Shown here piece after piece: positions 23,590 through 47,997 of a DNA stretch of 64,000 bases (its first letter is position 1; each line of letters begins with the position of its first letter). The translations under genes were made by a program, and so were the position numbers. The DNA is from Bacteroidia bacterium (GTDB taxonomy: Bacteria > Bacteroidota > Bacteroidia > J057), in contig JAUIGE010000002.1 in the NCBI GenBank assembly GCA_030430205.1, positions 372,001-436,000 on the forward strand, given 5' to 3'. The notes beneath the pieces are model-generated. The model ran no database searches. It worked only from the letters and a program-made list of their open reading frames with translations, and had not been told where the DNA came from.

Positions 23590-24837
23590 ATGACCAGCAT
23601 AAGTTTGATTACAATAGGCGGTGAGCTACTGAGAGGCCGTATTGTCAATACCAACAGCACCCATGTCGGAAGTTTATTGCGGGAAAGTGGATTTACCCTC
23701 AGTCGGAATGTAAGCATTCCGGATTTTCCAGAGACTATCCGGTCGGTGATTGAAGAGGAATGGGCCAAACACGATGTCGTGTTGACATCGGGCGGCCTGG
23801 GTCCTACCCAGGACGACCTCACCAAAGAAACTTTGGCGGATTTATTCAACTGTAAGCTCGTGATGCACGAGCCCAGCCTGCGCAGCCTGGAAACGCGCTT
23901 TGCAGCGCGTGGTTACACCGTCTCTGAGCGCAACCGCCAGCAGGCCATGCTGCCTGAGGCCTGCGAAGCCATCCCCAACCCCAAGGGCACAGCCCCCGGT
24001 ATGCTTTTCCAAAAGGATGGAAAAATCCTGATCTCCATGCCTGGTGTGCCTTTTGAAATGCTGCACATGATGAAAAACGCTGTTATTCCGTTGCTCAAAG
24101 AAAAGCATGGAGCAGAGCTTTTTTTGCACCGCACCCTCCGTTTGCGCAAAATATCGGAATCTGTGGTAGCGCTGCAGGTAGAGAAAATCCAGGATGAAAT
24201 GGTGAAAGGCATAGAGATCGCCTATTTGCCAAGGGATGATGGCCTCTGGCTGGAACTGGGCTTGCGGGTGTCCCCGGACAAAAAAGTCTGGGCAGAGGAC
24301 CAACTGGGGGATGCCTTTCGTTTGGCAAAAAATCAATTTGAAGACCAGGTCTACGCAGAAGGAGAAGCGAGCACGGCCCAGATGTTGGGCGAAAGGCTCA
24401 TTGAGAAAGGCCTGCGCATAGCGGTGGCAGAAAGCATGACAGGCGGCCTGGTCTCCGCCAAAATCGTCAGCATTTCGGGCTCTTCCACTTATTTTGAAGG
24501 CTCTGTTACGGCTTATCAGATACACCAAAAGCAAGCGCTTTTGGGCCTGGAAGCTTCGCTTTTCGAAGCACATGATGTCGTTTCGGCTGAAGTGGCAGAA
24601 GCAATGGCTACAGGCGTGCGTAAACTTTTCAACACAGATATAGGACTCGCAACGACAGGGCTTGCCGAGAAAGAGAAGGAAAGTGGCCGATTGCCACAGC
24701 TATGGTTGGGATTTGCTGACAAGCAGGAAACTTCTTCCCGTCATGTCGAACTCTACCATGACCGCAATGTCAACCGCGAAAGAGCGGCTCATCAGGCGCT
24801 GATTTATGCGCTGGAAATGATTGGGGAGATTGAATAA
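23590..24837 (+). CDS. cinA: CinA: competence/damage-inducible protein, NMN amidohydrolase type
   Basis: A 415-residue full-length two-domain CinA. The N-terminal MoaB/MogA-like COG1058 domain begins SISLITIGGELLRGRIVNTN and contains TSGGLGPTQDD. The C-terminal domain carries AVAESMTGGLVSAKI and SGSSTYFEGSVTAY; in the family its serine is the catalytic residue for deamidating nicotinamide mononucleotide in pyridine-nucleotide recycling. It is cytoplasmic. It stands alone between an AT-rich gap and a palindromic repeat element. Confidence 0.96.
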   Translation: MTSISLITIGGELLRGRIVNTNSTHVGSLLRESGFTLSRNVSIPDFPETIRSVIEEEWAKHDVVLTSGGLGPTQDDLTKETLADLFNCKLVMHEPSLRSLETRFAARGYTVSERNRQQAMLPEACEAIPNPKGTAPGMLFQKDGKILISMPGVPFEMLHMMKNAVIPLLKEKHGAELFLHRTLRLRKISESVVALQVEKIQDEMVKGIEIAYLPRDDGLWLELGLRVSPDKKVWAEDQLGDAFRLAKNQFEDQVYAEGEASTAQMLGERLIEKGLRIAVAESMTGGLVSAKIVSISGSSTYFEGSVTAYQIHQKQALLGLEASLFEAHDVVSAEVAEAMATGVRKLFNTDIGLATTGLAEKEKESGRLPQLWLGFADKQETSSRHVELYHDRNVNRERAAHQALIYALEMIGEIE

Positions 24838-46339: not shown

Positions 46340-46380
46340 ACTTGAACTCAAACTCAAACTCAAACTCAAACTCGTCCTCA
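46340..46380 (+). repeat. CAAACT hexamer tract after radC
   Basis: Seven bases past the radC stop is a run of AACTCAAACTC words (about five copies), framed by CTCGTAC and CTCGTCC. It is the same word as in the E2 linker and before the GNAT gene at 49530. A REP array starts a few bases beyond it. Confidence 0.85.
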
Positions 46381-46387
46381 AATTACA

Positions 46388-46926
46388 GGCGGGGATTACG
46401 CACAGGCCCCCGCTAAAGCCCGAAATCCCCGCCAGCAATTTGGGTTCAAGCCGCTCAGCGGCTTAGGAAGCCAAAGACTGCGTCTTTGTAACGGCCTTTC
46501 GCGCTGCGAAAGGCGAGCCTGTGGCTGGGACCAATCGCTGGGCCGGATTTCGGGGCCGTGGGAGGTTCTGCGCGTAATCCGGGCCCCGAAATCCCCGCCA
46601 GCAATTTGGCAGCAATTTAGGTTCAAGCCGCCCAGCGGCTTAGGAAATCAAAGACTGCGTCTTTGTAATGGCCTTTCGCGCTGCGAAAGGCGAGCCTGTG
46701 GCTGGGACCAATCGCTGGGCCGGATTTCGGGGCCGTGGGAGGTTCTGCGCGTAATCCGGCCCCCGAAATCCCCGCCAGCAATTTGGCAGCAATTTAGGTT
46801 CAAGCCGCTCAGCGGCTTAGGAAGCCAAAGACTGCGTCTTTGTAATGGCCTTTCGCGCTGCGAAAGGCGAGCCTGTGGCTGGGCCGGATTTCGGGGCTAT
46901 GGGAGGCTTTGCGCGTAATCCGGCCC
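46388..46926. repeat. Multi-hairpin REP array, left (three copies)
   Basis: Three direct copies of a roughly 105-bp core begin near 46424, 46587 and 46763. Each core contains three perfect hairpins in a row, each with a 3-nt loop: AAGCCGC-TCA-GCGGCTT, CAAAGAC-TGC-GTCTTTG and GCCTTTCGC-GCT-GCGAAAGGC. GGCGGGGATT/AATCCCCGCC or GGGCCGGATT/AATCCGGCCC inverted pairs close the units. The loop of hairpin 1 is CCA in copy 2. The array ends 6 bp before the transposase stop codon. Confidence 0.93.
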
Positions 46927-46932
46927 AAAACC

Positions 46933-47475
46933 TTAGATCAACAGATCTATTTCCAGCAAAGAGTCCTGTCCGCCATAAGCGGCTGCCGAACTAAACACAT
47001 AATGTGTAGGCTCAGTCACGATCATAGCCTTTACAGGATTTTGGTGGAGATACTCCAGCTTTTGTAGCATAAAAGGAATGCTATGAATCACCTTGGGGTG
47101 ATTGCCCGCTTGCCAAAGCTGGTAATGGCGAATTTTAGGGTTCTTTTTTGCTGCAAGGGAAAACCTCTCCAATAGCCATTCCCTTCGGCTTTCAGGGATT
47201 TCCTGAATCAATCTGATGATTTTGCGGGAAGTGAACTGTTTGAAATCGCGGAGGACGTCTGATAATTTTTTATCATCCTTTGTAGATAGAATCAGGTGCA
47301 AATGACTGGGCATGATCACATAACCGTGGATAATAAGACCTTTTGCTTCCTGGCAATATTGAAGTGCATCTATGATTTCCAAACAATATTCTTTTCGAGT
47401 GAAAAGGTCTATCCAGTCCACGACTGTCATGGTGAGGAAATGAGGGTTCCCCTCAAATATTTTGTGTCCGGGCAT
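46933..47475 (-). CDS. REP-associated tyrosine transposase (RAYT, Y1/HUH family)
   Basis: A 180-residue Y1 transposase of the IS200-like family. The metal-binding HUH motif is PSHLHLIL and the likely catalytic tyrosine is in LEYLHQNPVKA, the usual RAYT motif. RAYTs are single-copy, domesticated-looking enzymes that cut and move REP hairpins. Its placement directly between two arrays of one hairpin repeat supports this. The protein is full length with no frameshift, so it may be active. No accessory TnpB is present. Confidence 0.92.
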   Translation of the reverse strand: MPGHKIFEGNPHFLTMTVVDWIDLFTRKEYCLEIIDALQYCQEAKGLIIHGYVIMPSHLHLILSTKDDKKLSDVLRDFKQFTSRKIIRLIQEIPESRREWLLERFSLAAKKNPKIRHYQLWQAGNHPKVIHSIPFMLQKLEYLHQNPVKAMIVTEPTHYVFSSAAAYGGQDSLLEIDLLI

Positions 47476-47506
47476 GGAGGAAAGATAATAATCTTTTTGA
47501 AAATCA

Positions 47507-47980
47507 GGCGGGGATTACACACAGGCCCCGCAAAAGGCCGAAATCCCCGCCAGCAATTTGGGTTCAAGCCGCTCAGCGGCTTAGGAAGCCAAAGACTGCG
47601 TCTTTGTAACGGCCTTTCGCGCTGCGAAAGGCGAGCCTGTGGCTGGGAGTTGGCGGGGATTACACACAGGCCCCGCAAAAGGCCGAAATCCCCGCCAGCA
47701 ATTTGGGTTCAAGCCGCTCAGCGGCTTAGGAAATCAAAGACTGCGTCTTTGTAATGGCCTTTCGCAGCGCGAAAGGCGAGCCTGTGGCTGGGTGTTGGCG
47801 GGGATTGCACACAAGCCCCGCAAAAGGCCGAAATCCCCGCCAGCAATTTGGGTTCAAGCCGCTCAGCGGCTTAGGAAGCCAAAGACTGCGTCTTTGTAAC
47901 GGCCTTTCGCGCTGCGAAAGGCGAGCCTGTGGCTGGGCCGGATTTCGGGGCCGTGGGAGGTTCTGCGCGTAATCCGGCCC
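47507..47980. repeat. Multi-hairpin REP array, right (three copies)
   Basis: Three more direct copies of the core start near 47539, 47682 and 47828, in the same orientation as the left array. In copy 5 the third hairpin (47757-47777) is the exact reverse complement of the others (loop side GCAGCGC instead of GCGCTGC). Both arrays end with the same closing stem and the words AATCCGGCCCAAAACCT, so the two arrays look like a duplication around the transposase. Several reading frames stay open through the repeats but are not genes. Confidence 0.93.
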
Positions 47981-47997
47981 AAAACCTCAAATAGCAT

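Follow-up and report, generated by a model that had tools for sequence, protein, structure and literature searches.

A probable REPtron of TnpAREP subclass 2.6 in a Bacteroidia bacterium, with inverted REP pairs around hairpin-rich spacers

Within the window, a 64,000-nucleotide stretch of the genome of a Bacteroidia bacterium, a RAYT transposase gene lies between two repeat arrays, and we conclude that this locus is probably a REPtron of TnpAREP subclass 2.6 (RAYT group 5) that would move REPINs and whose arrays have been tandem-duplicated. This reading is supported by the anatomy of the locus, the dispersal of its repeats, the covariation of their base pairs, their co-occurrence with RAYT genes and the fold of the protein. 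The first-pass annotation had described a RAYT between arrays of a triple-hairpin REP; the RAYT and the REP arrays are real, but the triple-hairpin core is a spacer, and the REP itself corresponds to eight long imperfect palindromes that frame the cores and had been overlooked.

The gene between the arrays encodes a protein of 180 aa on the reverse strand (46936..47475, (-), stop codon at 46933-46935), and its earlier identification as a RAYT was confirmed. The ORF contains a Pfam Y1_Tnp domain and scores 95.7 bits for NCBIfam NF047646 (REP_Tyr_transpos), above the cutoff of 80. The protein is a Y1 transposase with an HUH motif (HLH, residues 58-60), WQ (121-122), Tyr142 in YLHQNP, which follows the pattern Y-x-x-x-N-P, and SS (162-163), both catalytic His and the Tyr being invariant in an alignment of 12 homologues. 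A sequence search of the PDB returned no significant relative, and the best PDB fold match of the AlphaFold model (pLDDT 91.7) is 4er8, the E. coli RAYT with a REP hairpin. The main text of Quentin et al. (2018, PMC6006769) describes TnpAREP subclass 2.6, or RAYT group 5, from Bacteroidetes, with a median of 179 aa, NH[LIV]H, WQ, YIH[QN]NP, an SS tail and a HuH-Y distance of about 82. Judged by motif comparison alone, apart from the published tree, the window protein would belong to this subclass by its length, its WQ, YLHQNP and SS162-163 motifs and its HuH-Y distance of 82, whereas its HUH motif, SHLH, differs. The same-genus orthologue (G001, locus L010) is 77% identical, and a RAYT-based search for related loci across the genome contig collection gave no match. 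The window genome (G000) also holds a second RAYT (L009, G000:C73), 53% identical to the first and with NHIH as its HUH motif. Just upstream of it lie 7 direct copies of the hairpin GGCACTTGGAAGTGCC with a 29-bp period (L009 2184-2500, G000:C73 about 24183-24500), and beyond these are hairpins of different sequence; only one additional copy of GGCACTTGGAAGTGCC is present in the genome.

Six triple-hairpin cores, all in one direction, do flank the RAYT, as the first-pass annotation had reported. Each carries on one strand AAGCCGC-3nt-GCGGCTT, CAAAGAC-3nt-GTCTTTG and GCCTTTCGC-3nt-GCGAAAGGC, so that the six cores hold 18 perfect hairpins with 3-nt loops, plus a CCAGC...GCTGG closing stem, and the identical tail AATCCGGCCCAAAACCT is indeed found at the ends of both arrays. 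The core copies make up a 122-nt family with 81-98% identity to the reference copy. The flanks of the RAYT (1.4 kb) contain 19 perfect hairpins with a stem of at least 7, against 0.6 in dinucleotide shuffles, and single units fold with z values of -3.6 to -5.5. However, when the 110-nt core was searched against the 7.24-Mb genome, only the window's six copies were recovered, and the REP unit is therefore another sequence. The second hairpin of the core is found by itself at five other places in the genome, as scattered singletons. The absence of further copies had been named by the first-pass annotation as evidence against its own reading, and it holds for the core alone.

The R1 covariance model detects eight REPs at the locus, in direct (F) or inverted (R) orientation; the spacers (T, the triple hairpin) were located by core search, all on the (+) strand. 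Array 1, with a copy spacing of 177 bp, reads F-T-R-(half F)-T-R-(half F)-T-R: it starts with REP F1 (46386..46435, (+), 61.0 bits), spacer T1 (46448..46514) and REP R1 (46538..46587, (-), 51.4 bits), continues through a truncated 3' half of an F REP at the tandem-duplication junction (46586..46602, (+), half-site CGAAATCCCCGCCAGC) to spacer T2 (46625..46691) and REP R2 (46715..46764, (-), 59.7 bits), and after a similar truncated F half (about 46763-46779), like the first found by direct reading, ends with spacer T3 (46802..46868) and REP R3 (46879..46928, (-), 63.6 bits), which carries AAAACCT. Array 2, with a spacing of 145 bp, reads F-T-F-T-F-T-R and comprises REP F4 (47505..47553, (+), 56.1 bits), spacer T4 (47566..47632), REP F5 (47650..47698, (+), 57.1 bits), spacer T5 (47711..47777), REP F6 (47795..47843, (+), 53.7 bits), spacer T6 (47856..47922) and REP R6 (47933..47982, (-), 61.4 bits), again with AAAACCT at the array end. 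Since both arrays start with F and finish with R, each can be read as one F-T-R unit plus tandem duplication; a single REPIN would thus have lain on either flank of the gene, expanded to F-(T-R-halfF)x2-T-R in array 1 and to (F-T)x2-F-T-R in array 2. At 47757-47777 the loop of the third hairpin of T5 is exactly inverted, from GCT to AGC, by three changes together, as expected from hairpin template switching or from cleavage and rejoining. A short ACTCAA tandem repeat lies between the radC end and array 1 (46340-46375), and similar sequences adjoin REPs in G001 (L010, L094). The 8-bp direct repeat CCTCAAAT around the locus was rejected as a target duplication, being mostly the common R-end tail AAAACCT.

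The REP is an imperfect palindrome of about 50 nt, GGATTACGC...GAAATCC, with a covarying GC clamp, a fixed A-A mismatch and AGC at its 3' foot, which equals GCT at the 5' foot of the opposite strand. Its stem has 10-11 pairs, the outer five of which covary, and the fixed mismatch is followed by a C-G pair and a variable inner loop. It is not a canonical GTAG REP: a GTAG tag was rejected because the copies contain no constant GTAG, their constant foot being AGC/GCT. In an alignment of 59 copies, picked with a mild stem filter that 86 of 91 passed, 96.5% of stem cells are paired. The five outer pairs change on both sides in 78 double-change cells (0 of 500 shuffles), a covariation that quasipalindrome correction can also produce without selection. 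One-sided (G-U) cells number only 5, and their near absence favours pairing in DNA over pairing in RNA.

Searches for the REP showed that it is widely dispersed. The pattern GGATTACRC-N14..32-GAAATCC has 29 matches in the window genome and 95 in G001, against 0 for a reversed control, and the covariance model finds 40 REPs in the window genome, 8 at the RAYT and 32 elsewhere, dispersed to about 25 other loci, and at least 99 in G001. Eighteen of the 22 dispersed loci examined overlap no ORF of at least 100 aa, and the element is, like other REPs, a palindrome dispersed in many intergenic copies. Across the genome contig collection, among the matches listed, the pattern is repeated in three Bacteroidota MAGs and otherwise occurs mostly as scattered singletons, which we take for chance.

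About 30 F-to-R pairs were found, with gaps of 25-102 nt and feet inward, the reverse order being rare; two inverted REPs with a linker are the architecture of a REPIN or BIME. The contrast that had been drawn with classical REPs, as one hairpin in inverted pairs, therefore fails, since the genome-wide REP also forms inverted pairs. Between the REPs of the dispersed pairs lie 1-3 small perfect hairpins. Their number is 21 in G000, where 5.4 are expected, and 17 in G001, where the expectation is 5.1 (0 of 300 shuffles each). The window spacer can be aligned with dispersed G000 spacers, the first hairpin differing by paired changes in a modest set of 14 sequences, suggesting that a hairpin-rich spacer is the general rule and that the window has its own form of it in the triple hairpin. 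Core T in G000 and the GGACTACGC type in G003 (a second genus), the variants next to the RAYT, are local and distinct from the dispersed subfamilies, which counts against the REPtron reading. What is unusual is the hairpin-rich spacer combined with outer inverted repeats (see below), not a direct-repeat REP. Predicted folds allow two states, in which either each REP pairs alone or F and R together form one long hairpin tipped by the small hairpins.

The REPs are also linked to the RAYT by position. The gene is bracketed by inverted REPs with feet outward, F4 (+) lying 29 nt upstream of the start and R3 (-) about 5 nt past the stop, and at L010 of G001 REPs occur upstream (1422-1472) and downstream (2049-2099) of the RAYT in the place and orientation of F4 and R3, respectively, so that the bracketing is kept at equal distances in two species despite different neighbouring genes. 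The L010 locus lacks the triple hairpin, and its RAYT lies between copies of the long imperfect palindrome that in the window frames the cores. The leader between REP and RAYT start (47476-47505; L010 1473-1500) keeps AAAGATnnTnATCTTTCC in both species and is a possible promoter or operator. In G003 the REPs flanking the RAYT are a local variant whose core shows a compensatory change from T-A to C-G; about 1 kb from this RAYT (L011 1-350) are tandem units with GGGGGTTGAAACCCCC and GTGCTTACAGCAC hairpins, a possible additional repeat family.

A RAYT homologue occurs in 27 of 60 relatives. The REP occurs in 6, each of them one of the 27, and was not found in the 33 RAYT-negative genomes (hypergeometric p = 0.006, a value that ignores phylogeny). 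This bears out the expectation that the repeat family co-occurs with this RAYT subfamily in relatives, in 6 of 6 REP-positive genomes. The well populated genomes are G000, G001, G003 and G006, while G012 and G032 have one or two matches each, and clustering of REPs at the RAYT is seen in three genomes from two genera. As a point against the REPtron reading, several RAYT-positive relatives gave no match to the R1 covariance model, although other repeats flank many of their RAYT genes; repeats of unrelated sequence are also frequent in the flanks of other subclass 2.6 RAYTs. In a distant relative (G047, L028 801-2700) a RAYT has multi-hairpin arrays on either side, unrelated in sequence to those of the window. 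These unrelated repeats and the G047 arrays suggest that hairpin-rich REPtrons recur, with sequences changing fast.

Most dispersed pairs are enclosed by an additional inverted repeat of 15-20 bp (CTAGTGTTCTTTCAA, ACTAGTGCATCAAGCAC, GCGAATCAAGAGTTGA and others). Copies within a subfamily are alike as far as these outer repeats and continue into unrelated DNA beyond, so that, as judged from their sequence, the dispersed units have the appearance of discrete mobile units, about 200-250 bp long. Such boundaries are also what a MITE-like element would have, bounded by the outer repeats and moved by another transposase, the REPs and the RAYT being incidental, and it agrees with this that the ends match within a unit (terminal pairing score of at least 10 in 72% of 29 units, against 8% of mismatched pairs). 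We nevertheless consider this explanation unlikely: terminal inverted repeats are present, as in a MITE, but within one genome each subfamily has its own version, and the REP core stays the same, the opposite of what is expected for a TIR-recognising DDE transposase, and neither the concentration of REPs at the RAYT in two genera nor the fact that none of the 60 genomes has REPs without a RAYT homologue would be expected. The RAYT-flanking units have no outer inverted repeats, hence the dispersed units may not move by ends like those at the RAYT. Two genes with an adjacent REPIN in the window genome have same-genus orthologues without a REP (L231, L233 in G001), which is weak evidence of lineage-specific insertion because synteny is broken on the other side of both units.

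A function of the hairpins mainly in RNA, as terminators, mRNA stabilisers or a leader controlling RAYT or radC expression, would fit the position of the arrays, which adjoin both the start and the stop of the RAYT as well as the 3' end of radC, and that of a REP which in two species precedes the RAYT start codon by about 29 nt. Yet G-U is nearly absent among the covarying pairs and the arrays stand on both sides of the gene, which makes such a main function very improbable, though the hairpins may have a regulatory side role. We also think it quite unlikely that the locus reflects passive instability, with a hairpin cluster of chance origin multiplied by replication slippage and template switching and its stems kept free of mismatches by quasipalindrome correction, the RAYT playing no part. 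Internal duplications with truncated REP junctions, and the exactly inverted T5 loop as a template-switch signature, are consistent with it, and it would cover local amplification and stem perfection, but not the dispersal to some 25 other loci with discrete ends, and it leaves the co-occurrence with the RAYT unexplained.

Returning to a REPtron that would move REPINs, the recognised unit would be the ~50-nt REP, and two inverted REPs, feet inward, with 1-3 small hairpins between them would constitute the REPIN. As a single-strand nuclease of the HUH/Y1 type, the RAYT most likely acts on REP hairpins extruded as single-stranded DNA, for example in replication: it would bind such a hairpin, cut close to it and rejoin the strands, spreading REPINs as small non-autonomous elements. 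The E. coli TnpAREP binds REPs as single strands carrying the foot and the mismatched stem, cuts at dinucleotides nearby and rejoins (PMC8266576). By analogy, we infer the same chemistry for the window RAYT, whose REP has a constant A-A mismatch and, as its constant foot, GCT/AGC where others have GTAG; cleavage by the RAYT, guidance by the foot tag and RAYT-driven mobility would follow from it. The inner hairpins may aid strand extrusion or shield the strand, and may also be sites of duplication and template switching, as in the T5 loop. More tentatively, the whole 200-250-bp unit might be a distinct single-stranded-DNA element, branched, largely self-paired and moved in one piece by the subclass 2.6 RAYT, in which structure would be kept over sequence at every level, the outer ends and inner hairpins being free to change while pairing.

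Among known repeats, pneumococcal BOX elements resemble these units in that their outer modules enclose inner stem-loop modules that vary in number; to our knowledge, they are unrelated in sequence to the window repeats and have no RAYT association. The E. coli REPtron, with its BIMEs and REPINs (group 2; PMC2817692, PMC8266576, PDB 4er8), is alike in the RAYT bracketed by inverted REPs, the clusters at the gene, the imperfect stem with a conserved mismatch, the inverted REP pairs and the protein fold, whereas the window system has no GTAG foot, a longer REP, another RAYT subclass, a spacer of several perfect hairpins and outer inverted repeats on its dispersed units. REP dimers whose spacer contains one or two stem-loops are known, such as A. 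tumefaciens CGTC-3 (Di Nocera et al. 2013, PMC3733652), and share with our units the inverted pairs with spacer stem-loops, but they are CGTC-tagged and without an associated RAYT. According to the main text of PMC6006769, subclass 2.6 genes are flanked by "atypical", weaker structures without GT[AG]G, with copies elsewhere in the genome; the structures at the window RAYT likewise lack GT[AG]G and recur in the genome. That main text presents neither a defined REP of ~50 nt tagged with AGC nor hairpin-rich spacers in REPINs, and mentions no outer inverted repeats or tandem arrays, although a member of the family may figure in its supplement; relative to it, the defined REP, its tag, the hairpin-rich REPINs with outer inverted repeats and the amplification at the gene are new.

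The eye-catching hairpins thus turned out to be the spacer and not the repeat. The substrates of the Bacteroidetes RAYT subclass have so far been known only as atypical secondary structures, and one putative substrate family is now defined by its consensus, tag, covarying stem, pair architecture and copy numbers, which is enough to test binding and cleavage. This raises the questions of whether GCT replaces GTAG as a guide and whether what RAYTs move may be composite hairpin elements and not REPs on their own.
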